A stretch of DNA of 64,000 nucleotides from Heliorestis convoluta (GCF_009649955.1 NZ_CP045875.1:1159501-1223500); one strand, 5' to 3'; shown: positions 30,459-56,000, numbered from the stretch's first letter. The notes: generated by a model from the sequence alone, not told the origin. Numbers and translations are program-made.

Positions 30459-30493
30459 CTTCTATATAAATAGCGGTTTTATCCAATCATGGT

Positions 30494-30527: not shown

Positions 30528-30644
30528 ACAAGCTGAAAACCTTTTATAGATGCCCCATACTCATTTTTATTTGACAGCTGATTGAATGGAACAAAGCTTA
30601 TGACTTGATAATTCGGCTAAAACAGATGAAAGGAGGAAAGGACG

Positions 30645-33940: not shown

Positions 33941-34053
33941 CCAATAAAAATCTCCTTTCAAACTAGAGAAAGACTTGCATTTTCTCTAGAAATGAGCGAC
34001 TAATGACATGCCTCAAAGCTGTCGCTCAAGTAGAAAGGAGATTTTTTTATTGG
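33941..34053 (+). promoter_or_regulatory. Multi-branched hairpin hiding the RBS of the fused recombinase
   Basis: The 19-base arm at 33941-33959 (starts CCAATAAAAATCTCC) is complementary to 34033-34053, which contains the AAAGGAG and the TTG start. Inside are two perfect hairpins, 33963-33989 (CTAGAGAAA/TTTCTCTAG) and 33994-34027 (GAGCGAC/GTCGCTC). The arm begins directly after the upstream stop codon, so terminating ribosomes could open it (translational coupling). Confidence 0.7.
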
Positions 34054-37000
34054 ACCAAAACGAAAAGAGAATGTGGATTCAAACCCTTTGGGAGCCCATC
34101 CATGAAATCAAGCAAAGCGCACTGGAAAGCGAAAGACAGGGCATCAAAGTGGCCGCTTATTGCCGAGTGAGCAGCAAAGACGAGTCCATCACATCGTTAA
34201 AGAACCAGATCGATCATTACACCCTTTTTATAAAAAACAAAGCAAACTGGAAGTTTGTCGGCATCTATTTTGACGCCGGTGCCAGCGCCGCCAACTACAA
34301 AAATAGAAGGGGCTTTCAAAGACTCTTGCGGCATTGTGAAGAAGGGAAAATTGACTTTATACTGACCAAAAATGTATCGAGGTTTTCGAGAAACACAGAA
34401 GAGCTTTTAAGAATTGTGAAAGAACTTAAAGAGCGGAACATTGGCATCTTCTTCGAAAGGGAAAACATCGACACATCCATCGAATACAATAAATTTCTTC
34501 TTAGCACTTATTCTGCTTTGGCCCAAAAAGAGATCGAGAGCATGTCTGAGCTAACGAGGTGGGGCTTTGAAAAACAGTTCATGAAAGGAAAACCCAAGTA
34601 CTCACGCATGCTCGGTTACGATGTCGTTAAAAGCAATGAAGAATCGCACCTTCAAATCAATGAGAAAGAAGCAGAGGCTGTTAGAAGCATCTTCAATATG
34701 TTTATAAAAGGACTTTCACTATCCGAAATTGCACGCCAGTTGATCCAAGAAGGCGTTAAAACGTCCGCCGACAAGGATTTATGGAGAGGAAGCACTGTTA
34801 AAAACATACTGACCAATGTGACCTATACAGGAAACAAGCTCACGCGTGTAAGAACTAAAGATATCTTTACCAACAAAACAAGCCGAGGAGCAAGAGACCA
34901 AATTCTCATTGAAAACTGCCACCGGCCTATTATCAGCCCAGAAGTTTTCGACTTGGCCCAGAAGCGACTGGAAGAAATAAAACCGAAAGAGATAGCGGCG
35001 AAGCCAAAAAAGAAAAAAGCTTTGTCAGGAAGGATGAAGTGCGGTCATTGCGGTTATAGGCTCTCAAACTATCCCACAAGAGGCGTGAACTATTGGAAAT
35101 GCGACCCCAGCGATTCAGGTGTATGCCACTTCAAATCGCTAAAAGAAGAGGCCTTACGCAAGATGATGCTAAAGGCCATGGAAGAAAAATATGATTTTCA
35201 ACAGCCTGGCCTACTCCAAAGACTGGGCAAGGAGCTAGAGCGGGTTAACCAAGATGATCACTTTGAATTTCTCAGGCTTAAATATATTACAGAAATAGAG
35301 CTCGCCAAACAGGAGCAGATATTGCTAGATCATCATCAAGACATCGACCAAATGGAACAAGCCTACTTTGCCTTTGAAGAAAAAGCGGCAAAATTAGAAG
35401 ACGATCGAAAGTATCGTAACGTAACGATTGAATGGTTGCAAAAAACCAGCAGCGTCGATGAATGGCTGGAAAAGGTTACGATTGAACATTTGCGATCTTG
35501 GATCATTGAAATGACAATCTACTCTACCGATGATTATCGAGTCTATTGGATTGATGATCAGCAAACCATGATCGGCGACTGCACGCTCTATGGCAAGGCG
35601 GAGCTAAGACCGAAGCTGGTAAAAGAACAGGAAAAAATGATTTCCAAGGAAAGCATAACCCTTCCCAAGGAGGCTCCAGTAGATATGGATACTAATAGAG
35701 AGGTTATTAAGATCGAACCGAGCCAAAGCGCTCTTACCAAGCAAGCGATTCAGTCAGCGAAAAATGTAGAGCTTATGAATCCCTTTCAAGCACTAGGCAA
35801 GCCCAGACTACGCACGGCCGCCTATTGCAGGGTATCAACAGATCAGCTAGATCAGAAGACAAGCTTAAAAACCCAGGTCGCCTATTACACCTATCTGATT
35901 CTAAAAGATCCAACCTACGAATTTACCGGCATTTTTGCAGACGAAGGGATCTCCGGGAAGTCACTTAAAAACAGAACAGAATTGTTGAAGCTGTTAGAAG
36001 AATGCAAAGCCGGAAACATCGATTTGATTCTTACCAAATCCATTTCAAGATTTAGCAGAAATACGCTGGATTGTTTAGAAATGGTCAGAATGCTACGCTC
36101 TTTACAGCAACCTGTGTATGTGTACTTTGAAAAAGAGAACATCCATACCAAAGACGCTACCAGTGAAATGATGATCTCGATTTTTGGCAGCATCGCGCAA
36201 GAAGAAAGCATTGGTTTAGGCGAGTCAATTGCCTGGGGAAAAAGAAAGTATGCAGCGCGAGGAATTGTAAAAACGGGAACCGTCTGTTATGGCTACAAGT
36301 TTGACAAGAACAAAAGGTGGGTCATTGACGAGGAAGAGGCCAAGATCGTGAGGAGGATTTTTCAAGATACTTTGGCCGGAAAAAGTTATAACCAGATTGT
36401 CAAAGAATTGACCGAAGAAGGCATCAAAAGCCCCAAAGGGAAAGCGAAATGGTACACATCGAGAATCAAAGCGATATTAGAAAACGAAGCCTATCGAGGC
36501 AATTATGTTTACCAACGGACCTTTACAGCTGATAGCATAGAAGCAAAAATTGTCCCTAACAATGGAGAGTATCCTCAGTACTTTATTGAAGACCACCATG
36601 AAGCGATTGTTTCCAGTAGCGATTGGGAAAAGGTTCAATCCATACTGGAAGAGCGCTCAGCGAAATTCAAAAATAGAAATCGAAAGAAATACCCTAAAGA
36701 AAACCTTAAAAATCCCGCTTTTGTGAATGCCTTTACCTGTGGTGACTGCGGGAGCTTGATCGGCCATAGACGGTATGTTGAAAAGACTTACGAAATGCAC
36801 GGTTGGGTATGCAACTTGGCCGATAAGCTTTATGTAGCCAACCGGTGCAAGTCAGGAAGATTTCAGCAAAAGCTTATAGAACTTAACTTCATGAAAACGC
36901 TGCTTTCTATCAAGAGGGACAAGGCATTTAAGAAGGCAATGGATGAGCTGATAAAAAAGACCGATTTGAATCAAGAGGAACTGCGTTTAGAGGAAGCGCT

Positions 37001-37685
37001 TCAAGATAGAATCGAGCTTTTCAACCAGCAGCTTTACGAGGCCGTGAATGAAGAACTCAATAAAGAGGGACAAGACTCTCGAAAAGTAGATGAACTAACA
37101 GAGGAACTCGTAAAGCTACATAATGAGCTAAAGAGCTATTCAGAGCGAAAACGGCAAGCACAACAATACAAGCAAGAGCTCAATTGGCTTTGGAAACAGC
37201 TACGAAAGATAGACGACAAAGCCATTGAAAGCCTCGATGTACTTCGGAAAGACCGAGAAGTTCCTTTTCGCAAGGACATCTTCACCAGGATTGTGGAGAG
37301 TGGAAAAATCTTCAGCGATGGCAAGATTATCTATAAGCTCAAGCTGGGTCTTGAGTGGTCGATTGATTTTAAGAATGAAGATTTCAAGAAACTCATCTCA
37401 AAGCAAAAAGCAGCCGAGCGCAGGGCGAAGAAAGAAGCCTTTTTAGAAGGGCCAGAAGTTAAAGCACTTTTAGAGTTTTGCCAAGAGCCAAAGCCTTTTT
37501 CAGAGCTCTTTAAGTTTATGAATAGGATGCTACCTATATCAGAAGCTCATTTTAGAGTAACGGTGTTGAACGTGCTCTTAGAGCAAGGCAGGGTGAAGAG
37601 GAAGTTCCCGGAAAAGCGTAGCCGCAGGATGATGATTTATTATTCTGTAGAAGGGGTTGGGGATGAGGGAAGGGTTAATTTTTAG
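34050..37685 (+). CDS. Fused double large serine recombinase (module 1)
   Basis: Starting at TTG 34050 (AAAGGAG upstream), this 1,211-residue protein carries two complete recombinase units. Unit one: catalytic domain with Ser41 (VAAYCRVSSKDE), recombinase domain, zinc ribbon (CGHCGYRL to CDPSDSGVCHF), coiled coil. A polar linker (about 530-580) leads to unit two with Ser596 (AAYCRVSTDQLDQ), recombinase domain, zinc ribbon (CGDCGSLIGHRR) and coiled coil. A C-terminal winged-helix-like domain (FRVTVLNVLLEQGRVKRKF, about 1170-1205) follows. Usual members are 450-550 residues with one unit. Both active sites look intact. A nearly identical copy lies at 53032. Confidence 0.93.
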   Translation: MDQNEKRMWIQTLWEPIHEIKQSALESERQGIKVAAYCRVSSKDESITSLKNQIDHYTLFIKNKANWKFVGIYFDAGASAANYKNRRGFQRLLRHCEEGKIDFILTKNVSRFSRNTEELLRIVKELKERNIGIFFERENIDTSIEYNKFLLSTYSALAQKEIESMSELTRWGFEKQFMKGKPKYSRMLGYDVVKSNEESHLQINEKEAEAVRSIFNMFIKGLSLSEIARQLIQEGVKTSADKDLWRGSTVKNILTNVTYTGNKLTRVRTKDIFTNKTSRGARDQILIENCHRPIISPEVFDLAQKRLEEIKPKEIAAKPKKKKALSGRMKCGHCGYRLSNYPTRGVNYWKCDPSDSGVCHFKSLKEEALRKMMLKAMEEKYDFQQPGLLQRLGKELERVNQDDHFEFLRLKYITEIELAKQEQILLDHHQDIDQMEQAYFAFEEKAAKLEDDRKYRNVTIEWLQKTSSVDEWLEKVTIEHLRSWIIEMTIYSTDDYRVYWIDDQQTMIGDCTLYGKAELRPKLVKEQEKMISKESITLPKEAPVDMDTNREVIKIEPSQSALTKQAIQSAKNVELMNPFQALGKPRLRTAAYCRVSTDQLDQKTSLKTQVAYYTYLILKDPTYEFTGIFADEGISGKSLKNRTELLKLLEECKAGNIDLILTKSISRFSRNTLDCLEMVRMLRSLQQPVYVYFEKENIHTKDATSEMMISIFGSIAQEESIGLGESIAWGKRKYAARGIVKTGTVCYGYKFDKNKRWVIDEEEAKIVRRIFQDTLAGKSYNQIVKELTEEGIKSPKGKAKWYTSRIKAILENEAYRGNYVYQRTFTADSIEAKIVPNNGEYPQYFIEDHHEAIVSSSDWEKVQSILEERSAKFKNRNRKKYPKENLKNPAFVNAFTCGDCGSLIGHRRYVEKTYEMHGWVCNLADKLYVANRCKSGRFQQKLIELNFMKTLLSIKRDKAFKKAMDELIKKTDLNQEELRLEEALQDRIELFNQQLYEAVNEELNKEGQDSRKVDELTEELVKLHNELKSYSERKRQAQQYKQELNWLWKQLRKIDDKAIESLDVLRKDREVPFRKDIFTRIVESGKIFSDGKIIYKLKLGLEWSIDFKNEDFKKLISKQKAAERRAKKEAFLEGPEVKALLEFCQEPKPFSELFKFMNRMLPISEAHFRVTVLNVLLEQGRVKRKFPEKRSRRMMIYYSVEGVGDEGRVNF

Positions 37686-39577: not shown

Positions 39578-39698
39578 TTCAATATCCCCCTCTATGCTCT
39601 TACGTTTAGTTTGGCAAAAAACATGCTTTCCTAAACCAAACAAAGAGAGGGGTTGGTATGGTGAGGTGAAAAAACCAAATCGTTGTTCCTCTAACGAA

Positions 39699-39859
39699 GC
39701 TCATCACCTTAACCGGTGGTGGGCTTTTTTTGATCTATAAAGCATACTCATGCAAAACCATATTCCGGGCAAAAAAGGGTCAGAGCATCACTATATCTAG
39801 TGACCCGGAATTTAGCCTGATACTAGATATAGTTATTTTATCCTTGGATCATCAAGGGG
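39699..39859 (+). other. Boundary element RBE-A
   Basis: A non-coding element of 161 bp. It opens with a terminator (GCTCATCACC/GGTGGTGGGC, T7; 39699-39731), has GATCTATAAAGCATACTC, then a small hairpin CACTA/TAGTG, ACTAGATATAGT (also a perfect 12 bp complement of ACTATATCTAGT upstream), and ends CCTTGGATCATCAAGGGG. The next base begins a recombinase sequence cut at the codon equivalent to residue 120 of recombinase 2. Three relatives end at equivalent points at 48690, 52068 and 59164. Confidence 0.7.
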
Positions 39860-41194
39860 TGCCTCAAATTCATAAGAGAGCTTAAGGCGTTGGGGATAGG
39901 CATTTACTTCGAAAAAGAGAACATCGACACCTTAGACACAAAAAGCGAACTGTTCCTTACCATCCTCTCCTCCATGGCACAGGAAGAGTCCAGAAGCATA
40001 AGTCTCAACACAAAATGGTCGATCATGAAGAGATTCCAACGAGGCAACGCCCATATCCCAACAACCTACTTTCTAGGCTACGACACTGATGAAAATGGCA
40101 ACCTTGTCATCAACGAAGAAGAAGCGGCCGTCATCCGAAGAATCTACTCCGAATGCCTCGCTGGAAAAGGAGCAGCCTTGATCGCCAAAGGCTTAATGAA
40201 AGACGGTATTTTAACAGCCAGAGGCAATAAAAAATGGACACCCGATGCGGTCTATAAGATCTTGACGAATGAAAAATTTACAGGCTCGGCCTTAACTAAC
40301 AAAACAATAACCATTGATTACTTATCCCACAAACGAATCCGGAATGATGGCAGAGAACAACAATATTTCATTAAAGAGCATCACCCCGCCATCATTTCAG
40401 AAGAAGATTGGAATGCCGTCCAGCAAGAGCTAAAACGAAGAAACGACATGCTCAGAAACCCCGATGGAAAATACGCACAAAACTATTCCAACAGATCATG
40501 CTTTTCCAACATACTCTACTGCGCCGAGTGCGGCCACCCCATCGTGCGAAGGCGAATGAGCTCACAGAAAAATGGAGAGAAGTACCTTTTCACCGCCTGG
40601 CACTGCCGAACGAAAACGCACCCCCAAAAATACAAAGAGGACTGCAAAGCAAGGTACGTCTGGGAATCTGCTCTGGAAAGTGAGTTCATGACTTTGCTAA
40701 GAGACTTAAAAGCAGGAAAGGCTGAATTGCTCCAAGATGCTCAGCAAGTCATTGATGAACACGACCTCAGCCCAACAGAAAAAGAGCGCCAATTAAATCT
40801 TGCAACACAGATTAAGCAAATCAATGAGCAGATACAAAAGCTCACAGAACAAAGCAACTCTTCTCTTGCCAACATTTATGAAGCTTCAATCAACCACTTA
40901 TACTACGAGCAAGAGCTACTACAAGCCGAGTACGATGAACTCGATGAGAGGCGACAAACAAGCAAAGATATGGAGCGTCACTTGGAAACATTACTTTCCT
41001 ATTTAGACAGCCTCGATGAACGAGAAAGCTTTGATGAACAAGAAAGCTTAGAACAAGAACAAGAAGAACCGGCCTTCCAAGAAGAAATCTTCCGACAGGT
41101 CGTGCAAAAAGGCATCATTAACAAAGACCTGAAAGTGACCCTAGAATTCAAATGTGGCATTACCCGAAGCTTTATAGCTAACCGGAAAAAATAA
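39860..41194 (+). pseudogene. 5'-truncated serine recombinase 2-like gene (module 2)
   Basis: The frame begins directly after RBE-A with CLKFIRELKALGIGIYFEKE and continues intact through recombinase domain, zinc ribbon (CAECGHPIVRRR) and coiled coil to 41194. The first ~119 residues, including the nucleophilic Ser, are missing, so it cannot cut DNA. TTG 39890 could start a 434-residue remnant. The absence of further damage suggests either recent loss or retained DNA-binding function. Its stop precedes another RBS-hiding inverted repeat. Confidence 0.85.
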
Positions 41195-41197
41195 AAT

Positions 41198-41311
41198 AAA
41201 GAACCCCCTTGAACTTCTAGCAAGATTGAGTGATAGATAACGTACCTCCCCAGTACCAACAGGTGAGGGAAGAACGCCAAACTTGATTAGAAGAGGAGGG
41301 GGTTTTTCTTT
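41198..41311 (+). promoter_or_regulatory. RBS-hiding inverted repeat before module 2 fused recombinase
   Basis: AAAGAACCCCCT (41198-41209) pairs with AGGGGGTTTTTCTTT (41297-41311), extended by CTTCTA/TAGAAG and CAAG/CTTG, burying GAGGAGGGGG and TTG 41310. The loop holds GAGTGATAGATA (41228) and an ACCT/AGGT hairpin. The sequence is unrelated to the 33941 stem but the architecture is the same. Confidence 0.65.
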
Positions 41312-44300
41312 GTCCGAGGACATTCTAAAAAACCATGAGTGGAAGGAAGTTCTCTGGAAACCCTTAGCCCAGGAAAAAGCAAGCCTACTAGGATCAGAGC
41401 AAAAGATCATCCGAGTTGCCGCTTACGCCAGAACGAGCAAAAAAATCAGCGTGCAATTGCAGTCCTTAGAAATTCAAATTGACTACTTCACAAGGTTTGT
41501 TCAAAAGAAGCCACAGTTTAAGCTCGTTTCAATTTATTACGATGAAGGTGTTTCTGGCACCAAAATGGACAACCGCTTAGGCCTGACCCGCTTGTTGCGC
41601 CATTGTCGAGAAGGAAAAATTGATTACATTGTCACCAAAAGCATATCCAGATTTTCACGGAACGTAAAAGAGCTTATGGAAGTGGTGAAAGAATTACAAA
41701 AGCTCAATGTGGGTTTGTATTTCCAAAAAGAAAACCTCGACACTTCAAAAGAGTACAACGAATTTTTACTGGCCACCTATGCGGCCCTTGCTCAAAACGA
41801 AGTAGAAACCTTAGGCCAAAACGTCAGCTGGGGCTATGAGCAAAGAACCTTACGAGGCGTGCCTAAGTTTGAGCGGATTCTCGGGTACCATGTTTTCCAC
41901 TATCAAAAAAAGCCCCACATCACCGTTGACGAAGAAGAAGCAAAGTACGTTAAAAAAGTCTATCAATTATATCTAGAAGGAAAAAACTACAATGAAATCG
42001 CCCAATATTTGATGTTGCAAAAAGTGATCAGCTCAAGAGGAAGCGCTGTTTGGGACGGAACAACGGTCAAAAAAAATTCTAACCAATGTGACCTATACGG
42101 GAAATCGACTTGCCACATTTAAGTCCAATGATCTTCTAACCAAAGGCAAAGCAACAGAGAGACAGAGCTATTACATTGAGAACAACCATCAAGCCATTAT
42201 TGACCGGTCCACCTTTGAAGAAGTGCAAAAGCGTATCCAAGCGACAGAGTACAAAAAGAATATGAAAAAAGCAGAGTTTCGCTCCTTATCCAGTCGCATC
42301 CTCTGCGGGCTATGCGGATGTAATTATCAGTTCTTAAGGGACTATGCCACCCCTTGTTGGCGCTGTAGAAAAAGTAAATATGGCATGGAAATATGCTCTT
42401 CTTACAGGCTCTATGAATCAGAATTGCTTGAGCTGATGAAAGAAGCCTTTAAGAAGCGCTTTGATAACCAGTCATTGAAGGATATCTTCTACCCAATGAA
42501 ACGACATCATGAACAAGATCAGTACGAACAGCGCCGATTGCTCTACTTCAGCCGGCTCCGATTGATCAGAGAGATGGAAAAAAAGGCGCTAGAAAGTGAA
42601 TTGCCTGTAATCCAGGACAAAAAGAAAGAGCTAGAAGAGGAGCTTTTTACTTTTGAAAGGCACCTCAAAAAGATAGAAAAGGACAGGTCTTATCGGGAAG
42701 AATCCATCGCTTGGATGAAAAGCATTTCTTCTCTCGATGACTTTTTTGAAGAAGCTACCATCGATCGCTTACGAGCATGGATCGTTAGCATGACGATTTA
42801 TTCAAAAGATTTGTTTCTCGTTCAATGGTATGACCAGCAAGAAACACAGGTAGGAGAAGGCGATACACCTGAACCGCCTAAGACCTGGAGGAATCTAAAC
42901 CACACTAATGAGCAACGAAAGAAGGAGGAAGGTGTGATAGTCCAGGGGAAAGAGGTTAGCCAGAATGAAGTGTTAGCCCAGAGCGAAGCACTTGTGCAGG
43001 GTGTTTTGATTGACCAGGGCGATGGGCGTATTCAGAGTGATGTGATACCCAAAGATGATACACTCATCCAAGGCGATACTTTTAGCCAGAGCGATGCACC
43101 TGTGCAGGATAATGTGATTGTCAAAGATGATGAGCTCACCCAGAGTAATGTGATAGCCCCAGATGATGCATTCATCCAGAGTGATGTAATAACCCAAGGT
43201 GATACTCTTGCTCAGAATAATACTTCTATCCATGACAATGCACCTGCTCCAACCCATAGAGCAAAGATTAGCACACCAGCAAAGGGTTATCTAACGCGCC
43301 AAATAAAAAAAGAAAACATCATCAAAGTGGAGCAGGCTGTTCAAAGAAAGCAGCTAGAAAAGCCAAAACTAAGAACGGCCAGCTACTGCAGGGTATCAAC
43401 GGAAAAAGACCCCCAGCAGATCAGTCTAGAATCGCAAGTTGCCTACTACACTTATCTGATCTTGAAAAACCCTGATATGATCTTTGCCGGGATCTTTGCC
43501 GACAAAGGGCTGTCGGGAACACAAACCAAAAACAGAACAGAGTTTAATCGGCTTATGCAAAAATGCAAAGAAGGAAAAGTCGATCTCATACTGACCAAAT
43601 CCATATCAAGGTTTTCTAGAAATACGGTCGACGCCCTTTCTTGGGTAAGAATGCTAAAGTCACTGGATCCACCCGTACATATCCACTTTGAGCGAGAGAA
43701 CATCAACACAGCCGATGAAGACAGTGAATTGATGCTAACAATTCTAACCAGTATGGCCCAAGAAGAAGCGATCAGCTTAGGAATCAGTAGCCAGTGGGCA
43801 AAACAAAAGTTAGCCGAACAAGGCATTATCAATGTGGGCCGAGCCCCTTATGGATACGACCTTGATGAAGAGAAAAACTGGGTCATCAACCCTGAACAAG
43901 CAGCCGTGGTTAGAAGAATCTTTCAATCTTACTTAAGCGGCAAGGGCACCAGAACAATTGCCCGAGAATTAAGCGAAGAGAAGATCGAATCAGCCAGCGG
44001 AAATAACTACTGGCATCAAAATGCTGTCCATCGGATCTTACAGTCCATCATCTACAGAGGCTGTTACTTATACCAAAAGACCTACTCACAAGATGCAATT
44101 ACACAAAAAAGATTGGTTAACAAAGGGGAGCTTCCCCAGTATTACATCGAGGACCATCATCCAGCCATTATCACACCGGAGGTTTGGGACGCCGTTCAAG
44201 AACTGAGAGAATCCAAAAAAATAAATATAAAGATCATGCCAGAAGAAAGAAGGGAGCCACAAAACTTTCATAAAATATTTAGGTGCGGTCAATGCGGAGG

Positions 44301-44976
44301 AATCCTGAGCCATCATTTGCGGTACAACTACCAAGATCCGAAGAAAGGTGCAAAGCACTACTGGAGATGCATTGTCAGTAGAGGGAAAAACTACTCTGCC
44401 AAGTGCAATGCTCAGAGCTTTCGGCAAGAGTATCTAGTGCATAACTTTATGACCGCATTGCTGGAGATGAAATCAAATGAACGATTTCAGATAGAGGCAG
44501 AAGCTGTAGCAACCAAGACAGACTTAACAAGTGAAGAACTTGCTGAAGTGAAAGCAATAGAAGCAAAGATGGAGCAACTCAACCAAGAACTTTATGAAGC
44601 CGTAGACGAGGAGTTAAACAAAGCAGGCCAAGACACCAAAAAGGTCGAAGCGTTAACAGACCAGATCGTAAAATGCAAAGAGCAGCTAGATGAGTATGAA
44701 GAGCGAAAAGAAAAGGCTGAAAAGTATCGAGATGAACTAAAGTGGCTCATGAAAGAATTAGAAGGCTTGGAGGAGTTTGATCCGCTCAAGCACCGGGTAG
44801 CCTTTCGAGCAGATATCTTCGAGCGCCTTGTAGAAAGTGGAGTCGTTCATCCCGACGGCAGGATTGTCTATACACTAAGCACAGGAGTTGAGTGGGAGTG
44901 CTATCTTGAAGAGAAGCGATCCTATAAGTTGAAGGTGAAACAGCAGAGGATGGAAAGGGTTCTTAAGAAAAAGTGA
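41310..44976 (+). pseudogene. Fused double serine recombinase with frameshift in an A8 tract (module 2)
   Basis: TTG 41310 opens a fused recombinase (first Ser43 in VAAYARTSKK). At about 42069-42076 a run of eight A replaces the seven needed for codons AAA AAA ATT, and the frame is lost after 251 residues. The rest (TYTGNRLATFKS onward) is intact from 42088 to 44976 with the second unit (CRVSTEKDPQQ), zinc ribbon and coiled coil. Without the extra base the product would be 1,221 residues. Slippage on A8 could restore some full-length protein. The two units are joined by an 18-copy hexapeptide linker. Confidence 0.85.
42931..43254 (+). repeat. 18 degenerate hexapeptide (18 bp) repeats in recombinase linker
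   Basis: The 324 bp encode exactly 18 six-residue units such as GVIVQG, DTLIQG, DTFSQS, DAFIQS and DVITQG. Position 5 is Gln in 13 of 18 and position 1 is mostly Asp or Asn. They join the two recombinase units; the linkers of the other two fused proteins lack them. Confidence 0.8.
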
Positions 44977-44988
44977 ATCAATAGAGAA

Positions 44989-45041
44989 AGCCCACTAAGT
45001 TAGCTGTGTAGGATTTAGATAGCTACTTGGTGGGCTTTTTA
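44989..45041 (+). terminator. Array-type terminator (module 2)
   Basis: AGCCCAC pairs with GTGGGCT around an inner TTAGCT/AGCTA hairpin, followed by TTTTT. Related long hairpins sit at 48246, 50424 and 60479. Confidence 0.8.
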
Positions 45042-45156
45042 TTTCGTTATTATCGAGTTGTTGGAGAATCTCGGAACCTTGATAGTAGAGTGCTTTTGCG
45101 TGACATAAACAAGACTGAGTTAAAGCTCTTGTAAAAAAAATGTTTACCTTTCTTTT

Positions 45157-45181
45157 GTCTTAATTCCGTCATAATTAAGAC
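45157..45181. promoter_or_regulatory. 9 bp palindromic operator candidate
   Basis: GTCTTAATT, seven bases, AATTAAGAC is a perfect inverted repeat 52 bases before the next gene; AAGACTGA(G/A)TTAA also occurs twice nearby. Likely a repressor site of the following two-gene unit. Confidence 0.6.
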
Positions 45182-45232
45182 TGAATTAACGTAGAATAAA
45201 AGTAACTTAAAGGGAAGGGAGGATAGCATTAT

Positions 45233-45778
45233 ATGAATGTGTACGAATCACGGGCTGTACTTCGTTATCCAGTAGAAAAAGCCGATATTCGTAAAGACGA
45301 AAAGACTTTGCATGAAGCCGCGAAACACTTTAATGAAAAAGCGGTAAATCGCAAAATTATGGCCATATCGGCAATTTGTGAGACACAAATTGATTTTCTT
45401 ATTGCTTTTTATGGTGATAAGAACAAGAGTCCTACGGGCTATGATCTTGTAGAATTTACCAAGTTCTTGCAAGCGGGAGGCTTTTCCAAGTTTTCAAGAC
45501 ACGACGGCAAACTTTTTGCTATTCTACCGAATCTGACCAGAAAAGCCACACTCCAGGAATTGAAAGAAGCATTGAAAAAGAACAATGACCCTATTGCAGA
45601 AAGCCTTTACCACGATGGTTATGAAGAAGCTATCACAATCCAAGACAAATCGGCAGTTACAGATGCGACGATACTTGCTACTGTTCAATTTCTATTAGCT
45701 GCTTCCTTATACGATCCTCGCAAAGAAGAAGATGCTCAACAAATTCGCGAAATAGCCAAAAAGTGGATCATGGGTTAA
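45233..45778 (+). CDS. Unknown protein, first gene of a two-gene cargo unit
   Basis: The 181-residue protein starts at ATG 45233 after AAGGGAGG. It begins MNVYESRAVLRYPVEKADIR and is mostly helical and charged, with no signal peptide or membrane helix. I do not recognise the family. It is followed 39 bases later by a 107-residue protein, and a palindromic operator lies upstream, so the pair resembles an autoregulated stability or defence unit. That reading is inference. Confidence 0.7.
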   Translation: MNVYESRAVLRYPVEKADIRKDEKTLHEAAKHFNEKAVNRKIMAISAICETQIDFLIAFYGDKNKSPTGYDLVEFTKFLQAGGFSKFSRHDGKLFAILPNLTRKATLQELKEALKKNNDPIAESLYHDGYEEAITIQDKSAVTDATILATVQFLLAASLYDPRKEEDAQQIREIAKKWIMG

Positions 45779-45817
45779 GAGATTGGTGAGAAATGATTAA
45801 CTGAGGGAGTGATTTAT

Positions 45818-46141
45818 GTGCCTGCTAGCCAATATAACGCGTTAAAAGGTCATCCAAACTTGCTGAATGGGTTGCGTAACGAAGTCTTTGATGTAGTGCA
45901 GCAGTACGGGTCAATGTCGAAACCGTTGACAGCGCATGAGATTGTCGGCCGAATTCACCAACCCATCTCTGTGCAAGCAATAGCTATGGTCTTGCAAACC
46001 GTTAACAAACATCGAAACACAGCTTCAGTTGCTTCAGCAGTAGCCGCACAGCTTTCGAGAGAAAACTTGCTAGTTCAAGCGGTGAAAAAGTGTCCGGTTA
46101 CAAGCAAATCAATGCCTGCTTGGTATGTTGAAACAACATAA
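45818..46141 (+). CDS. Unknown protein, second gene of the cargo unit
   Basis: The protein of about 107 residues is assigned to GTG 45818 (GAGGGAG 11 bases upstream; GTG 45809 is too close). The segment LTAHEIVGRIHQPISVQAIAMVL (about 36-58) looks like a winged-helix or helix-turn-helix. It may regulate the operator at 45157. The family is not recognised. Confidence 0.6.
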   Translation: MPASQYNALKGHPNLLNGLRNEVFDVVQQYGSMSKPLTAHEIVGRIHQPISVQAIAMVLQTVNKHRNTASVASAVAAQLSRENLLVQAVKKCPVTSKSMPAWYVETT

Positions 46142-46166
46142 GCTTAGATAAGACGGGGCATTTCTA

Positions 46167-46203
46167 GTACATCACCCAGCGAAATGGTGATGTGCTTTTT
46201 TTT
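46167..46203 (+). terminator. Terminator of the two-gene unit
   Basis: GTACATCACC pairs with GGTGATGTGC, followed by eight T residues. Confidence 0.85.
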
Positions 46204-46339
46204 GCTCTTTAAAGGTTCAGTGACCTACGGGCCCGGTTTTTTTAGTTCCTAGCACGAGAACCCCTCGGATTTCTCTTGATATAGGCCTGCTCTAGAGCGA
46301 TACTCTTACTACCAAAACGAATGGGTTCGGGAGGGGAGA

Positions 46340-46444
46340 ATGATGATGGCCGGCAAGAAGGAAAGAAAACAACTGTCACCAAGTCTCTCTCTCAAGAATC
46401 TGTTCAGCCCTGTGCCGATCTGCACAGGTTTTTCTTTTGCCTAA
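46340..46444 (+). CDS. Basic leader peptide (copy 2, 34 residues)
   Basis: Three consecutive ATG codons (46340-46348) follow GGGAGGGGAG. The peptide opens MMMAGKKERKQLSPSLSLKN. A deletion in the terminator loop removed the stop found in the other copies, so the frame runs through the terminator to TAA 46442-46444. The upstream block starts TAGCACGAGAAC as behind the fused recombinases, although no recombinase precedes it here. Confidence 0.45.
   Translation: MMMAGKKERKQLSPSLSLKNLFSPVPICTGFSFA
46409..46438 (+). terminator. Terminator in leader (copy 2)
   Basis: CCTGTGC, loop CGATCT, GCACAGG, then TTTTTCTTTT. Confidence 0.8.
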
Positions 46445-46463
46445 AAAGAAGGGAGTGTCCAAG

Positions 46464-46757
46464 ATGGGTATTGGAAGAGTGAAAACATTCATCGATGTGA
46501 TTGAATTGGCTCCACTCAAAAGCGGCCAGGGAGTGGCCGATCACATTGTAGCAAGCATGGGAGCGTATCGAGTGGAACTGCATGCTTCAACAGAAGAGGG
46601 GAGAACAGCTTTTCAGATCCGGGAAATACCGGGACTTGAAGTTAAGGAGAACATGATTTTGGTCTGCGACACCGGCAGATACAGGATCACCGAGATTAAG
46701 CGAAAGGAAGATATGTATCTAGAGGCTTTGGTTCAAAAGGATTGTAAATCGGTATGA
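46464..46757 (+). CDS. Unknown small protein of the recombinase array (copy 2)
   Basis: The 97-residue protein from ATG 46464 (GGGAGTGTCC upstream) begins MGIGRVKTFIDVIELAPLKS and is clearly homologous to the protein at 37909, with changes spread over its length (for example EITEIKRKEDMYLEALVQKD-type end). Divergence with conserved frame suggests selection on the protein. Function unknown. Confidence 0.75.
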   Translation: MGIGRVKTFIDVIELAPLKSGQGVADHIVASMGAYRVELHASTEEGRTAFQIREIPGLEVKENMILVCDTGRYRITEIKRKEDMYLEALVQKDCKSV

Positions 46758-46815
46758 ATATGTATTGATATGAATAACTTGTTTTGAATGAAAAAGTAAT
46801 AAATGGAGGGTTTCA

Positions 46816-48141
46816 ATGACATTAAGCGATGTCAGAAGGAAGTCAGGAAAAACCGTTAATGATGTAGCGAACGAAACGAAAATAAGCATTGAACGATTGA
46901 TTGCCTTTGAGGAAGGAAGAAGAAAGCCGACAGACAAAGAAGCTACTCTTCTCGCAAAGTGTTTCAATGTAAAAATATCGCTAATAAGAGAGGTTATTGA
47001 AAAAGATGAAAAGAGTCTAAAACTTCTAATGAATAGTGTGGTGATGCACGGTAACGTTCCATCAGCTGATAACTACGGAAGAGAGACAATGGACGCGTTT
47101 GTGTTATTAATAAATGATTTATGGCCGATGATTGACAAAAGTGTCACTTTCTATATCGGGCGGTCAGATGAAATATCTGTGGAAATGAGAATAAAAGAAT
47201 GGAAGCAACAGTTAAGAAATATTTTAACTGAAGGAAATAGAGATCATTGCTTGACAAGAAAGTCTTTTCCATTCACAACATATGGTTTTGATAATCCATC
47301 AACTTGTTGGGTAGAATTGTATGACTGTGACGAAACAGTTGATGGCATTCATACGGTAGTCTTAGATGGTATGAATGGAACAAGTGTTACTCAAGGGGCA
47401 GAAACTTTTATTAGAGACTTGATAGAGATAATTCTTAAATCAAAAGGTTGGGCATCAGGAAGCATGTTGAAGAACGATGAAAAAAGTGAAAAGTATCTTT
47501 TTGATACGACTGATATGAACGTTAGATTTTTACAGAGGATATATATAGATAAAGAAGAAAAATTTCAAGAAATCAAAATTAAAGAAGGTGAAGCTTTATT
47601 TCTGCCAAGTGAATTAAAGCTAAAACCATTTATAGATGATGAGGTATACCGTACTTACCGCATAATGAAGAGAGCAAGAGATTTGCCAGAGCCATCATTT
47701 AGAGGCCAAGACGATTATAGATGCAAAGGAGATAGATGTGGTAACTGTCCAATGTCTACAGGTATACCACCAGATGAACAAAATGGATGCTCATATTGTC
47801 GCGGTATAGCAAAAGCATGGTTGGTAAGGGAATGGCTCTTGGAAAAGTTTTCAGACGAGGAAATAAGAAGTATAAGAACATATGATCAATTGTTTAAGAA
47901 ACATAATCAAATAGCTGATGAATTGAAAGATTCATTTTGCGGCGGAAATGAAAAAAATGCAAAATTAACTTACTACCATTCTTACATTTTCGGTAACTAT
48001 GGCGGAAGTGATAACCTTGTCGTTTCTGAATCAGGATATACAAATGGAAGACACAGGACCAAAATTGCACAGGCTCTGGATTTAGTTGTTCCTGTTCATT
48101 GGGAAACTAAGGAGAAAATGAATGGCGAGTTAATAGAATGA
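46816..48141 (+). CDS. HTH protein with Cys cluster, unknown (possible defence cargo)
   Basis: The 441-residue protein has an XRE-type HTH at residues ~5-55 (SGKTVNDVANETKISIERLI) and a long C-terminal part with a Cys cluster CKGDRCGNCP, then CSYC about 13 residues later, which may bind zinc or an iron-sulfur cluster. The gene is visibly more AT-rich than the recombinases and sits alone between modules, signs of separate acquisition. I do not recognise the family. A regulatory or defence role is possible but not shown. AATGGAGGG precedes ATG 46816. Confidence 0.7.
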   Translation: MTLSDVRRKSGKTVNDVANETKISIERLIAFEEGRRKPTDKEATLLAKCFNVKISLIREVIEKDEKSLKLLMNSVVMHGNVPSADNYGRETMDAFVLLINDLWPMIDKSVTFYIGRSDEISVEMRIKEWKQQLRNILTEGNRDHCLTRKSFPFTTYGFDNPSTCWVELYDCDETVDGIHTVVLDGMNGTSVTQGAETFIRDLIEIILKSKGWASGSMLKNDEKSEKYLFDTTDMNVRFLQRIYIDKEEKFQEIKIKEGEALFLPSELKLKPFIDDEVYRTYRIMKRARDLPEPSFRGQDDYRCKGDRCGNCPMSTGIPPDEQNGCSYCRGIAKAWLVREWLLEKFSDEEIRSIRTYDQLFKKHNQIADELKDSFCGGNEKNAKLTYYHSYIFGNYGGSDNLVVSESGYTNGRHRTKIAQALDLVVPVHWETKEKMNGELIE

Positions 48142-48245
48142 TTATGTTGATATAAAGTGCTCTTGTTATCAACGGTGTTAAATAGATGTACGTAAATAAT
48201 CAATGAGTGCAGTCGCACAACTGAGAAACAAGTCAACAAGAAATA

Positions 48246-48300
48246 GCACCCCACCGAGTCGGTTCTAAGCATATCGAGCCTACTTGGTGGGGCATTTTTC
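48246..48300 (+). terminator. Array-type terminator after the HTH/Cys protein
   Basis: GCACCCCACC pairs with GGTGGGGC around GTCGGTTC-containing inner sequence, followed by ATTTTT. It is related in layout to those at 44989, 50424 and 60479. Confidence 0.65.
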
Positions 48301-48341
48301 ACACCTATCATGTGAAAAAAAGAGCTATACAAATGATGCAC

Positions 48342-48458
48342 TTATGTCAAAGCAACTCGGTAAAGAAAAAAAATAAGCAGTGTCCACAGAGGAATGCTTA
48401 TGAATGTTCCAACGATAAGCCCTTTAAAAAAGTTAAGGCCCTCATCTGTTTCTAGCAA
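48342..48458 (-). CDS. 38-residue single-helix membrane peptide (copy B)
   Basis: TTG 48458 follows AAAGGGGTA on the minus strand and encodes MLETDEGLNFFKGLIVGTFI followed by SIPLWTLLIFFLYRV. It matches copies A and D in 20 or more positions although the DNA has diverged, which supports real coding. Confidence 0.6.
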   Translation of the reverse strand: MLETDEGLNFFKGLIVGTFISIPLWTLLIFFLYRVALT

Positions 48459-48532
48459 GGTTAGTACCCCTTTTTATTCTTATTCTTAACGAATAAGGGG
48501 CCTTCTTAAACCAAGATTGAGGGACGCTTCTA

Positions 48533-48690
48533 GCTCATCACCTAGCCGCGGTGGCGGGCTTTTTATCTACGAAGTATATTGATAAAAACAATCGTTTAAC
48601 GAAGAGAACGCTAGACTGCCACTACATCTAGTAATCCCAAGCTTAATCCGATACTATATCTAGATTTTTTATCTAACTCGGATCATGGGG
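48533..48690 (+). other. Boundary element RBE-B
   Basis: This 158 bp relative of RBE-A opens with the terminator GCTCATCACC/GGTGGCGGGC, continues TATCTACGAAGTATATTG, has a CTAGA/TCTAG stem (about 48611-48636), GATACTATATCTAGAT, and ends CGGATCATGGGG. Recombinase sequence (WGIMKRFQRG) begins within about ten bases, equivalent to residue 174 of recombinase 2. Confidence 0.7.
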
Positions 48691-49821
48691 TACTCGCTGG
48701 GGCATCATGAAGCGTTTTCAACGAGGCATAGCCCACGTTCCAACAACATACTTCCTAAGCTACGACACTGATGAAAAGGGCAACATTGTCATCAACGAAA
48801 AAGAAGCTGCCGTAGTCAGAAGAATATTTTCAGAATACCTCGCTGGAAAAGGAGCATCCCTGATAGCCAAAGGTTTAATGCGAGACTACATCTTAACAGC
48901 CAGAGGCAATAAAAAATGGACAGCCGATGCGGTGCAGAAGATACTCAAAAACGAAAAGCATTGTGGAAATACGGTTACCTCGAAGACAATAACCGTCGAT
49001 TACTTATCCCACAAAAGAATTCGAAATGATGGCAGGGAGCAACAATATTTCATCAAAAATCATCACCCAGCCATTATTTCAGAAGAAGAATGGGAGGCGG
49101 TTCAGCAGGAGTTGAAGCGAAGAAATAAAATGCTTCGCGATCCTGATGGGAAATACGCTCAAAACTATTCGAACCGGTCCTACTTTTCTAATAAGCTTTA
49201 CTGCGGTGAGTGCGGCCACCCAGTTGTCAGGAGAAGGCTTAGCTCACAGAAAAATGGAGAGAAATATTATTTCACAGCCTGGCAATGCCGCACGAGGATA
49301 CACCCGAAAATTTACGTTGCTGATTGCAAAGCAAGATACATCAGGGAAAGCGCACTTGAAGAAGCATTTATGAAAGCGCTTCATGACTTAAAAGAAGAGA
49401 AGGATCAAGTCACTAGCGAAGTCAACGAAATCATAGCCGAATACGACCTAAGCGATATGGAAAAGGCACGACTCATCATCGTAGAGGAACAGCTAGACAC
49501 AATTAATAACCGCATCCATGAATTGACCGAAAATCGAAACTCCACGATTGCAGATGTGTATGAAGCAAACATCCGGCATTTATATTACGAACAAGAAGCA
49601 TTACAAGCTGAACTAGAAGATCTACATGAAAAGCAAGAGGAAAGCAAGCACCTGAAAAGCAATTAGAAGAGCTATTGAGTCTACTAGATGAGCTTGAAAA
49701 TGATCGAAGCTTTAGAGCCGATATCTTTCAACAAACAGCCAATAGCGGAATTCTCAGCAAAGACCGAGAAGTTGTATTTGAATTTAAGTGTGGCATCAGC
49801 AGAAAGGTTAAAGCAAAGTAA
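48691..49821 (+). pseudogene. Truncated and frameshifted serine recombinase 2-like gene (module 3)
   Basis: The sequence starts at the equivalent of residue 174 of recombinase 2 and reads KRFQRGIAHVPTTYFLSYDT through a zinc ribbon (CGECGHPVVRRR). Near 49648 the frame shifts by one base. The other frame continues EKQLEELLSLLDELEND to the conserved end FEFKCGISRKVKAK and stop 49819-49821. The whole catalytic domain is missing, so it is inactive as a recombinase. Confidence 0.85.
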
Positions 49822-49869
49822 GGCTTAGAAAACAAGTACCCTGAAGCAAATGAATGCCCTGGTCAAACG

Positions 49870-49954
49870 AATACCCCCTTTCTTCAAAAACCACTTGCAA
49901 AGCAGTTGGTTATGAGTGATAGATAGGACACTCAAAAATGAAGAAGGGGGTATT
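49870..49954 (+). promoter_or_regulatory. RBS-hiding inverted repeat (module 3)
   Basis: AATACCCCCTTTCTTCA (49870-49886) pairs with TGAAGAAGGGGGTATT (49939-49954) with one bulge, burying GAAGGGGG before TTG 49959. Inside are an AACCA/TGGTT hairpin and GAGTG/CACTC (49914-49933) with the GAGTGATAGATA word. Confidence 0.65.
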
Positions 49955-49958
49955 TACT

Positions 49959-50441
49959 TTGAAAAAAACCCGAGTCGCCTGTTACTGCCGAGTGAGCTCC
50001 AAGGAAGAAGAACTACTAAACTCCTTAGAAAACCAAGTGCAGTACTACACAAGGTACATCGAAGAACAGCTGGACTGGAGAATGGCCGGCCTTTATATCG
50101 ATAAAGGCATATCAGGCAAAGGCAAGAAAAAAAGAACGGGCTTTTTACGCATGTTACGGCACTGTGCTGAAGGGCGCATTGACTTAATCATCACCAAAAG
50201 CGTTTCAAGATTTGCGAGAAATACGCAAGACTTTTTAGAGGTAGTCAACGACCTCAAAGAAAAAGGCATAGACATCTATTTTGAGAAAGAGGACATCCAT
50301 ACTCTATCAGCGGACAGTTCTTTTTTGCTATCCACACTGGCAGCGGTGGCCCAGGAAGAACTAAGGAGCATGTCCGAAAATAAAATATGGTCCAAAGAAA
50401 AGAGAGCTACCCAAGGAAAGTGGAAAAAACCACCGAGTTAG
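49959..50441 (+). pseudogene. 3'-truncated fused-recombinase gene (module 3)
   Basis: TTG 49959 opens a catalytic domain with intact nucleophile (VACYCRVSSKEEELL), ITKSVSRFARNTQDF and AAVAQEELRSMSEN. After about 155 residues it runs into the conserved terminator and ends as a 160-residue fragment. Everything from the recombinase domain of unit one through all of unit two is gone. A free catalytic domain could still interact with full-length partners, but this is speculation. Confidence 0.8.
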
Positions 50442-51765: not shown

Positions 51766-51905
51766 ATGCGAAGCAAAGAATTCAAAGATTGAATAACTAT
51801 TTGAGGTCCAATGACCATTTTTGAAGACACCTCTGAGCCTCGCAGGCTTAGTCGGATATAAGGGAAGGTATCCCCAAAATATCAAAACGAAATTCCTTCA
51901 ACGAA

Positions 51906-52068
51906 GCTCATCACCTTAACCGGTGGTGGGCTTTTATTTTTTATCTACGAAGCATATTGATAAAAGTAATCGTTTAACGAAGAGAACGCTAGACTACCAG
52001 TACATCTAGCAACCCAAATCCCAGCCCGATACTATATCTAGATTTTTTATCTAAATCGGATCATGGGG
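51906..52068 (+). other. Boundary element RBE-C
   Basis: A 163 bp element, close to RBE-B in its right half: terminator GCTCATCACC/GGTGGTGGGC, TATCTACGAAGCATATTG, a perfect GCTAGA/TCTAGC stem (about 51990-52012), GATACTATATCTAGAT and the end CGGATCATGGGG. From 52070 the sequence is the duplicated recombinase 2 (equivalent to residue 264). The 140 bp before it (51766-51905) hold no visible gene. Confidence 0.7.
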
Positions 52069-52921
52069 CGCCGTACTCTGCCAGAAGTCAGTCACCATAG
52101 ACTTCCTGAACCACAAGCGCGTCCCCAACCGAGATATTTTGCCTCAATACTACATTAAGGACCACCACCCGGCCATTATATCGGAAGAAGAATTCCAGGC
52201 TGTTCAACAGGAGATCAAACGCAGATACAACATGCGCAAAGATCCCGATGGCAAGTATCGAATGAACTATAGCGGAAAAGCCCCTTTTTCCAATAAACTT
52301 TTCTGCGGCCATTGCGGCAGGCCTGTGGTCAGACGCAGACTAACATCCCAAACAAATGGCGAGAAGTATCTTTTCTCAGCCTGGCAATGTCGAGTACCCG
52401 TAGGGAGAGACCCAGACTTTAAAGGTTGCAATGGAAGGTACGTTTGGGAGGTTGATTTGGAAGATTGTTTCACAGAGCTTCTACGTGAAATGCGCAACAA
52501 TAGGGATGAAGTTATAGCAGATGCAGAGCAGGCCATAGCAGATAAAAGGTTATCGGAAAAGGAGCAAGCAAGATTTGAAGAGCTTGAAAAACAACTTGAA
52601 GCGGTAACAAATAGAATTAGCGACCTAGCCTCGAGAGAAATGGGCAGTGCAGACGCCCTTTACGATGCCACCTTACGGCACCTGATTTTCGAGCAAGAAA
52701 TCCTCAAACAAGAATATGATGCGCTCAAAGATAAAAAAGAGGGAAGCTTATACTTCCAGAAACACTTGGAGGTACTTTTAGAATACCTTGACCAGCTACC
52801 TAAACGATTTAGCGATGAAATCTTCATCAAAACAGTAGAGCGAGGTATTCTCGATAGAGACAAAAAAGTCACCTTTGAATTCAAATGCGGCATTGTCCGC
52901 AAAAAACCAGTAGGCAGATAA
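52069..52921 (+). pseudogene. 5'-truncated copy of recombinase 2 (module 4)
   Basis: From AVLCQKSVTIDFLNHK to the end, this matches recombinase 2 of module 1 with only about five amino acid changes in some 280 residues. It lacks the first ~263 residues including the catalytic domain. The junction with RBE-C is sharp at GGGG 52065-52068. A TTG at 52139 could start a 260-residue zinc-ribbon/coiled-coil remnant. Confidence 0.9.
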
Positions 52922-53035
52922 CCAATAAAAATCTCCTTTCAAACTAGAGAAAGACTTGCATTTTCTCTAGAAATGAGCGACTAATGACATGCCTCAAAGC
53001 TGTCGCTCAAGTAGAAAGGAGATTTTTTTTATTGG
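52922..53035 (+). promoter_or_regulatory. RBS-hiding multi-branched hairpin (module 4)
   Basis: The same structure as at 33941, with outer arm, CTAGAGAAA/TTTCTCTAG and GAGCGAC/GTCGCTC hairpins all conserved; the right arm has eight instead of seven T residues before the TTG start. Confidence 0.7.
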
Positions 53036-56000
53036 ACCAAAACGAAAAGAGAATGTGGATACAAACCCTTTGGGAGCCTATCCATGAAATCAAGCAAAGC
53101 GCACTGGAAAGCGAAAGACAGGGCATCAAAGTGGCCGCTTATTGCCGGGTGAGCAGCAAAGATGAGGCCATTACTTCATTAAAGAACCAGATCGATCACT
53201 ACACCCTTTTTATAAAAAACAAAGCAAACTGGAAGTTTGTCGGCATCTATTTTGACGCCGGTGCCAGCGCCGCCAACTACAAAAACAGAAGAGGCTTTCA
53301 ACGACTCTTGCGCCATTGTGAAGAAGGAAAAATTGACTTTATACTGACCAAAAACGTATCGAGGTTTTCGAGAAACACAGAAGAGCTTTTAAAAATTGTG
53401 AAAGAACTTAAAGAGTGGAACATTGGCATCTTCTTCGAAAGGGAAAACATCGACACATCCATTGAATACAATAAATTCCTACTTAGCACCTATTCCGCTT
53501 TGGCCCAAAAAGAAATCGAGAGCATGTCTGAGCTAACGAGGTGGGGATTTGAAAAACAGTTCATGCAAGGAAAACCCAAGTACTCACGCATGCTCGGTTA
53601 CGATGTCGTTAAAAGCAATGAAGAATCGCACCTTCAAATCAATGAGAAAGAAGCAGAAGCTGTTAGAAGCATTTTCAACATGTTTATAAAGGGACTCTCC
53701 CTTTCCGAAATTGCACGCCAGTTGATCCAAGAAGGCGTAAAAACGTCTGCCGGCAAGGATTTATGGAGAGGAAGCACTGTTAAAAACATACTGACCAATG
53801 TGACCTATACAGGAAACAAGCTCACGCGTGTAAGAACCAAAGATATCTTTACCAACAAAACAAGCAAAGGAGCAAGAGACCAAATTCTCATTGAAAACTG
53901 CCACCAGCCCATTATCAGCCCAGAAGTTTTCGATCTAGCCCAGAAGCGACTGGAAGAAATAAAACCGAAAGAGATAGCGGCGAAGCCAAAAAATAAAAAA
54001 GCTTTATCAGGAAGGATGAAGTGCGGTCATTGCGGTTATAGGCTTTCAAACTATCCAACAAGAGGCGTGAACTATTGGAAATGCGACCCCAGCGATGCAG
54101 GTGTATGCCACTTCAAATCCCTAAAAGAAGAGGCCTTACGCAAGATGATGCTAAAGGCCATGCAAAAGAAGTATGATTTTCAACAGCCTGGCCTGCTCCA
54201 AAGACTGGCCAAGGAGATAGAGCGGATCAATCAAGATGATCACTTTGAATTTCTCCGGCTTAAATATATTACAGAAATAGAGCTCGCCAAGCAGGAGCAG
54301 ATATTGCTAGATCATCATCAAGACATCGACCCAATGGAACAAGCCTACTTTGCCTTCGAAGAAAAAGCGGCCAAACTGGAAGACGATCGAAAGTATCGTA
54401 ACGCAACGATTGAATGGTTGCAAAAAATCAACAGCGTCGATGAATGGCTGGAAAAGGTTACGATCGAACATTTGCGATCTTGGGTAATTGAAATGACAAT
54501 CTACTCTACCGATGATTATCGAGTCTATTGGGTTGATGATCAGCAAACCATGATCGGCGACTGCACGCCCTATGGCAAGGCGGAGCTAAGACCGAAGCTG
54601 GTAAAAGAACATGAAAAAATGATTTCCAAGGAAAGCATAACCCTTCCCAAGGAGGTAGACGTATCTGTGGATACAAACAGAGAGGTTATTAAGATCGAGC
54701 CGAGTCAAAGCGCTCTTAGCATGAAGGCGATTCAGTCAGCGAAAAATGTAGAGCTTATGAATCCCTTTCAAGCACTAGGCAAGCCCAGACTACGCACGGC
54801 CGCCTATTGCAGGGTATCAACAGATCAACTAGATCAGAAGACAAGCTTAAAAACCCAGGTCGCCTATTACACCTATCTGATTCTAAAAGATCCAACCTAC
54901 GAATTCGCCGGCATTTTTGCAGACGAAGGAATCTCCGGGAAGTCTCTGAAAAACAGGACAGAATTGTTGAAGCTGTTAGAAGAATGCAAAGCCGGGAACA
55001 TCGATTTGATTCTTACCAAATCCATTTCAAGATTTAGCAGAAATACGCTTGATTGTTTAGAAATGGTCAGAATGCTACGCTCTTTACAGCACCCTGTGTA
55101 TGTTTATTTTGAAAAAGAGAACATTCATACCAAAGACCCCACCAGTGAAATGATGATCTCTATTTTTGGTAGCATCGCGCAAGAAGAAAGCATTGGTTTA
55201 GGCGAGTCAATTGCCTGGGGAAAAAGAAAGTATGCAGCGCGAGGAATTGTAAAAACGGGAACCCTCTGTTTCGGCTACAAGTTTGACAAGAACAAAAGGT
55301 GGGGCATTGACGAGGAAGAAGCCAAGATCGTGAAGAGAATTTATCAAGATACCTTGGACGGAAAAAGTTATAACCAGATTGTCAAAGAATTGACCGAAGA
55401 AGGCATCAAAAGCCCCAAAGGGAAAGCGAAATGGTACACATCGAGAATCAAAGCAATATTAGAAAACGAAGCCTATCGAGGCAATTATGTTTACCAACGA
55501 ACCTATACAGCCGATAGCATAGAAGCAAAAATTGTCCCTAACAACGGGGAGTTTCCTCAGTACTTTATTGAAGACCACCATGAAGCGATTGTTTCCAGTA
55601 GCGATTGGGAAAAAGTCCAATCCATACTGGAAGAGCGGTCAGAGAAGTTCAAGAATAGAAATCGAAAGAAATATCCGAAAGAAAACCTTAAAAATCCCGC
55701 TTTTGTGAATGCCTTTACCTGTGGTGACTGCGGGAGCTTGATCGGCCATAGACGGTATGTTGAAAAGACCTACGAAATGCACAGTTGGATCTGCAACTTG
55801 GCTAATAAGCTTTATGTGGCCAACCGGTGTAAGGCGGGAAGATTTCAGCAAAAGTTTATAGAGCTTAACTTCATGAAAACGCTGCTTTCTATCAAGAGGG
55901 ACAAGGCATTTAAGAAGGCAATGGATGAGCTGATAAAAATGACCGATTTGAATCAAGAGGAACTGTGTTTAGAGGAAGAGCTTCAGGAAAGAATCGAGTT

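Follow-up and report, generated by a model that had tools for sequence, protein, structure and literature searches.

The B-C junctions of a serine recombinase array in a Heliorestis convoluta prophage, where recombinase gene C follows genes A and B, are best explained, with a probability of about 0.6, as read-through insulators built around a nested late-type phage promoter, C being made only when its own promoter fires. The array lies in a 64,000-nucleotide (nt) stretch (NZ_CP045875.1:1159501-1223500, hereafter the window). Direct support comes from the predicted fold over the Shine-Dalgarno (SD) sequence of C, from its conservation and covariation, from a bipartite site of constant spacing, and from the recurrence of this site, without the hairpin, at other phage genes. 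In nearly every family a promoter-like site of exact spacing lies between the hairpin arms; in one phage group it has diverged.

Hairpins covering the ribosome-binding site of C

The window contains four B-C junctions, J1 to J4. An earlier note on this DNA had described hairpins over the SD of the next recombinase gene at 41198-41311 (J2) and 49870-49954 (J3), and both are present: the fold of 41195-41325 reaches -43.9 kcal/mol (z score -4.1) and that of 49860-49970 reaches -39.3 kcal/mol (z -6.6), with 0/200 shuffles as stable in either case. J1 (33938-34052) and J4 (52919-53034) have the same SD-covering fold (z -8.2 and -7.9, respectively). The stem covering the SD is named P1, and a further hairpin P2. 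The elements are:

33943-34049, + strand: J1 element, with P1 arms at 33943-33959 and 34033-34049 and P2 at 33963-33989; start codon TTG at 34050
41202-41224, + strand: 5' arm of P1 in J2, AACCCCCTT at 41202-41210 plus an extension; a homologous arm is present in Heliorestis acidaminivorans
41295-41304, + strand: SD of the C copy behind J2 (C'), which is the 3' arm of P1; a T run follows, and the start codon is TTG at 41310
49870-49886, + strand: 5' arm of P1 in J3, AATACCCCCTTTCTTCA
49887-49911, + strand: P2 hairpin of J3 around CTTGC, with CTTG at 49894-49897
49939-49954, + strand: SD of the C copy behind J3 (C''), TGAAGAAGGGGGTATT, the 3' arm of P1; start codon TTG at 49959
52924-53030, + strand: J4 element before an intact C, inverted repeat I1; CTTG at 52955, start codon TTG at 53032

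In J2, AACCCCCTT pairs with the SD arm and the helix is extended by CTTCTAgCAAG/CTTGatTAGAAG, while in J3 AATACCCCCTTTCTTCA pairs with TGAAGAAGGGGGTATT; the loop closed by P1 is 70-90 nt long and contains inner hairpins. The TTG codons right behind the SD are the real starts of C, to judge from the N-terminus conserved in the relatives (W..TLW[DN]P). At three phage loci (L122, L125 and L147) an N-terminal extension (MGKTSDDAVNKATVYQLDEIEN.., MGLFDKTKESTQ..) is fused in frame to C and is itself preceded by the hairpin, and therefore the hairpin goes with the real start of C.

Two parts of the earlier description need correction. The J2 and J3 sequences do differ but are not unrelated, since the junctions are homologous and belong to diverged paralogous gene pairs (C proteins 44-49% identical to the J1 copy). 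The fold does precede two other fused recombinase genes, although neither is intact, C' being frameshifted and C'' a 167-aa remnant.

Conservation and covariation of the arms

Relatives of the A-B-C trio were found in Cytobacillus, Sutcliffiella and other Bacillaceae, in two genomes of the same phylum, in Youngiibacter, in a metagenome contig, in phage PV036459.1 (source, human faeces) and in many IMG/VR contigs. An arm complementary to the SD is present in every B-C junction examined (Heliorestis, Bacillaceae, Youngiibacter and phages), and none of these homologous C junctions lacks pairing over the ribosome-binding site (23/23 pair over the SD). The comparison proposed in the earlier note, an alignment of homologous junctions with an assessment of covariation, was carried out on 25 different arm pairs, with an alignment that used only the sequence, against 500 shuffles. 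In these, 83.5% of the cells pair and 14 cells have changed on both sides; the percentage paired, the both-side changes and the covariation score are above all 500 shuffles, with the maximum at the true register. Moreover, 5' arms paired with their own SD sum to -598 kcal/mol, against a mean of -442 and a best value of -533 kcal/mol in 100,000 permutations (0 as good), a test against which kinship among the sequences works, because arm swaps between relatives stay good. Own-arm pairing and covariation thus support the suggestion that the fold matters.

Predicted accessibility follows the same division. In read-through RNA the predicted unpaired probability of the SD is at most 0.34 in 23/23 C junctions (median 0.00), and in RNA starting 36 nt after CTTG the median is 0.60. 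At other sites carrying the loop motif the corresponding values are 0.36 and 0.64, and the gain differs from that of the C junctions (p 7e-7).

A bipartite site of constant spacing in the loop

The motif GAGTGATAGATA, which had been noticed in both loops, has two exact copies in the window (41228 and 49914), in the loops of J2 and J3. It is one half of a bipartite site, CTTG-N16-GAGTGATA, with the general form CTTG-N16-GAG[T/C/G]GA:

CTTG at 33974 and GAGCGAC at 33994, + strand: bipartite site of J1
41208-41239, + strand: bipartite site of J2, CTTG-N16-GAGTGATAGATA, exact match, motif half at 41228-41239
49894-49925, + strand: bipartite site of J3, CTTG-N16-GAGTGATAGATA

The distance from CTTG to the motif is exactly 16 in 30/39 C junctions, and the motif is found in 0/3900 shuffled junctions; the exceptions belong mainly to one phage group with CTTG-N16-ATGCAAACAT. 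Between families the N16 spacer sequences are mostly 12-69% identical. CTTG falls within the loop of a hairpin in J1 and within a stem in L109 (a related locus, as are L149 and L152), and it lies beside P1 in J2, L149 and L152; the P2 hairpin is absent from these last three, where the spacing of 16 is kept. A spacing that is kept however the RNA folds speaks for a DNA site bound by a protein.

At C the SD-arm duplex has a median z of -4.8, against -0.4 for 142 other genes preceded by the site; for other recombinase genes the median is -1.0. This, together with the variation of the arm sequences among families, bears out the earlier view that the fold is not a leftover transposon repeat. At other sites carrying the bipartite motif no covariation of P2 was seen, and the idea that P2 is part of the site everywhere was rejected, P2 being found only at C. 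Since SD pairing and P2 covariation occur at C and not at the other sites, the hairpin looks like an addition made to the site at C.

As a separate observation, in one phage group (L097, L126-L154) the loop includes AGAT[TA]GTACTTGCAATA, which is invariant across diverged proteins, and CUUG pairs with a downstream CAAG; the constraint on this loop seems to exceed what a promoter alone needs.

The site before other phage genes and a candidate regulator

Outside the B-C junctions, the site is found before an amidoligase-like gene and before recombinase A, and a candidate activator is encoded in the same window:

9702-10124, + strand: DUF1492/phrog_36 transcription regulator resembling sigma region 4, a candidate for activating the sites
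13054-13085, + strand: best copy of the site (score 54.7), before the amidoligase-like gene (phrog_2443) that opens the late terminase-capsid-tail region
30494-30525, + strand: site before recombinase A, without an SD hairpin and closely preceded by an intrinsic terminator (30427-30452)

If one mismatch is allowed, the window has 13 copies of the site, all on the + strand, against 3.5 expected. The exact pattern has eight forward matches in the whole genome, mostly within this prophage or close to it, against two for the reversed control. In IMG/VR, CTTGC-N15-GAGTGATAKATG was found in at least 120 viral stretches, against two for a pattern one base shorter; among the matches listed, the genes behind these sites encode amidoligase-like proteins, small phage proteins and recombinases. 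Their logo has A/T tracts at about -27, -15 and -5 from CTTG (about 11 bp apart), followed by CTTGCTATT, TTTAGAGTGATATATG, an A-rich stretch and, soon after, an SD. Phage PV036459.1 carries sites before its amidoligase-like gene, before two more genes and before recombinase A, at positions syntenic with the window.

A DUF1492-like gene lies upstream of the site, on the same strand and at 2.2-7.4 kb, in 32 contig strands, and never downstream (among the matches listed). The late-operon site has the regulator gene upstream both in the window (9702 and 13054) and in PV036459.1 (regulator 42098-42520, site 38704). Because genes of this kind are commonly found at that position, we regard this gene and the site as associated only.

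At 37709, 46275 and 56691 there are weaker copies of the site (CTTGATATA..TCTAGAGC.ATACTC..TACTACCAAAA), behind C genes and ahead of small genes that form a repeated family (..RVKTFIDVIEL..). Some 14 kb downstream from the window (locus L205, G000:C1:1237469), a CTTG-N16-GAGTGATAGATA site stands beside a hairpin-like dyad, and the gene behind it looks like a tyrosine-type integrase. A matching SD hairpin before recombinase A was also considered and finds no support (z -1.5 in the window); the pyrimidine stretch at that place is part of the intrinsic terminator.

Proposed mechanism

The loop site, of the type found at the late operon and at recombinase A (CTTGCTATT-N7-TTTAGAGTGATATATG), is probably a promoter driven by the phage DUF1492 sigma-like regulator. 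Read-through RNA coming from A and B would contain both P1 arms, which would pair and hide the SD of C, and read-through transcription might also be stopped at the U-tract behind the SD; RNA begun inside the loop would lack the 5' arm, leaving the SD free for translation of C. Judged by predicted accessibility, C should thus be translated poorly from read-through RNA and well from its own RNA. The promoter, its RNA start point, its driver and the effect on translation are what we infer here. With the loop motif as a promoter-like DNA site, the mechanism probably shifts from a ribosome-binding site that is hidden until opened to one in which only loop-started transcripts are translated. One DNA stretch would then be read in two ways, as a late promoter on DNA and as the loop of a silencing hairpin in read-through RNA, from heliobacterial prophages to Bacillaceae and phages of the human gut. 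This tentative reading, which we rate at a little under even odds, would make the third recombinase strictly promoter-gated, so that recombination in need of A, B and C is limited to one set stage of the phage cycle, and the sites would form an undescribed class of late promoters of Firmicutes phages.

Several observations weigh against the insulator with a nested promoter. The promoter is a predicted one, and the site does not resemble a sigma-A promoter, no match at it having been found in 30400-34200. The search pattern partly fixes the core of the logo, though not its flanks, and the J1, J2 and J4 sites score below 14 with a matrix built mostly from gut phages. The P2 hairpin covaries at the C junctions (35/20,000 permutations as good, eight sequences), and a promoter alone would not need P2. 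The weakest point is the diverged phage group of L103 and L132-L154. There, C has ATGCAAACATAC as the second half-site, which departs widely from the consensus, whereas GUACUUGCAAUA never varies and the loop adopts other pairings: promoter function of the site is doubtful in this group, and the loop may act there as RNA. A sigma-A promoter farther upstream, which would place the motif in the 5'-untranslated region (5'-UTR), was considered and rejected, TTGACA being without enrichment at a fixed place.

Alternative explanations

The covariation of P2 speaks for a regulated RNA switch, in which the loop (ACUUGCA, GAGUGA) is an aptamer or protein site and a ligand, protein or small RNA opens P1 within the A-B-C message; in phages of the L103/L132 type, moreover, 17 loop nt are almost invariant and long-range helices form. 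However, both halves of the site stand at equal spacing at 142 other sites that have neither SD hairpin nor P2 covariation, between families it is the spacing that is kept and not the secondary structure of the loop, and a search of Rfam 15 found no family at the gathering score and nothing convincing at E up to 3. We consider such a switch unlikely, although it is the most serious of the alternatives. The hairpin could instead be mainly an intrinsic terminator or attenuator ending the A-B message, with SD pairing as a by-product of its placement at the start of C, given that a run of at least four T stands behind the SD arm in 94% of the C junctions, against 3% of other sites. Intrinsic terminators are short-looped (3-10 nt), far from the 70-90 nt observed, a terminator scan of 30400-34200 did not report the junction hairpin, and in all families the SD is the centre of the pairing; we find this reading improbable as the main function. 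It is compatible with, rather than opposed to, an insulated promoter, and given the U-tract the P1 stem may double as a terminator.

Translational coupling, whereby ribosomes ending gene B melt P1 and C is then translated, would fit J1, J2 and L114, where the stop codon of B lies 7-11 nt before the arm, but in the other relatives this distance is 17-84 nt (mostly 20-53 nt), outside the reach of a terminating ribosome, which makes coupling very improbable. The chance that GAGTGATAGATA belongs to a leader peptide is negligible: a tiny open reading frame (ORF; ATG/TTG AGT GAT AGA stop, MSDR) can be read in J2 and J3, and a shorter one (MSD) in J1 and J4, but that frame has no start codon in the Bacillaceae, Youngiibacter and phage junctions. 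Comparison with relatives refutes MSD(R), no short ORF being conserved in the loop; a second upstream ORF (TTG plus five codons, TGA) has early stops or no stop in several relatives. We retain the read-through insulator with its nested promoter as the preferred explanation.

The prophage and its recombinase array

The window covers part of a prophage. The genome that carries it is a single contig of 3.22 Mb, and H. acidaminivorans is the nearest relative found. Within the window the gene order runs from replication genes to the DUF1492/phrog_36 regulator, the terminase, structural and lysis genes, and the serine recombinases:

30645-32303, + strand: recombinase A, a large serine recombinase
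32300-33940, + strand: recombinase B, whose start overlaps the end of A
34050-37685, + strand: recombinase C, two serine recombinases fused, an intact ORF of 1225 aa behind J1
41310-44976, + strand: C', frameshifted C copy behind J2 (ORFs 41283-42122 and 42088-44976)
49959-50441, + strand: C'', truncated C copy behind J3 (167-aa remnant)

Downstream of the intact trio there are three more, partial, B-C pairs, at 39890-44976, 48707-50441 and about 52064-56667; the C gene behind J4 is an intact ORF of 1227 aa. The frameshift that splits C' sits at a run of eight A (42069-42090) and could be due either to mutation or to an error in the sequence; a related copy in H. acidaminivorans stays open past this point. 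That genome has a like array of B-C pairs (loci L095-L096), in which copies broken in the window have longer open versions, the counterpart of C'' being a long open frame of 1087 aa. A repeat of about 170 bp is present in four copies (39690-39860, 48515-48700, 51890-52070 and 59000-59160), made up of AGCTCATCACC..GGTGGTGGGCTTTT followed by ACTATATCTAGT..ACTAGATATAGT-like arms and ending in GATCAT..GGGG. Each copy lies directly 5' of a 5'-truncated recombinase gene, with a different truncation residue per copy, which looks like the product of serial insertion or accretion.

Significance and comparison with known systems

If the proposed mechanism holds, phages would shield a recombinase gene from their own upstream genes by the device with which transposons fend off read-through from the host, and a promoter sequence with a candidate regulator, directly testable with reporters, would be available for a large group of phages of Firmicutes. 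A caution also follows, as a conserved loop motif in a structured leader may be a promoter on the DNA instead of an aptamer. The type of device is known from transposons; for phage recombinases, and for this promoter class, we found no description in the literature searched for the motif, three-recombinase elements and late promoters, a coverage that is incomplete and leaves most subscription papers outside.

Late promoters of the RinA/Ltr/ArpU type in phages of Gram-positive bacteria are similar in that the late operon is under a regulator of about 130-140 aa whose gene immediately precedes those for packaging, as for the Ltr promoter of phage Phi13, which combines a sigma-A-like TATA box with four direct repeats (PMC13123087). 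The site described here is instead CTTG-N16-GAGTGATA, has no sigma-A match and also stands ahead of recombinase genes. In Staphylococcus aureus, sigma-H controls a prophage integrase, and a conserved upstream untranslated prophage element ties integration and excision to this alternative sigma factor; the promoter is of another type, and the parts of that report consulted do not mention a hairpin hiding the ribosome-binding site (PMC2869324). Structures in the 5'-UTR of the ISPpu9 and IS200 transposases block translation (PMC8450116 and references therein), and here too a mobile-element enzyme has its ribosome site hidden by secondary structure in the 5'-UTR. Those structures sit in the enzyme's own mRNA and are modulated by small RNAs, whereas the own transcript of C would lack the 5' arm.

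In Tn10/IS10 and Tn5/IS50, an inverted repeat hides the transposase start in transcripts coming from outside, and the promoter lies between the arms, such that the element's own transcript lacks the 5' arm. The junctions described here are alike in having an arm over the SD of a recombinase gene; the promoter-like site between their arms is a candidate counterpart of the transposon promoter. They differ in that the gene encodes a large serine recombinase in a phage operon, shielded from the phage's own upstream genes and not from host transcription, and in having a promoter-like site of phage late type, a possible terminator and arm sequences that are free to vary between families.

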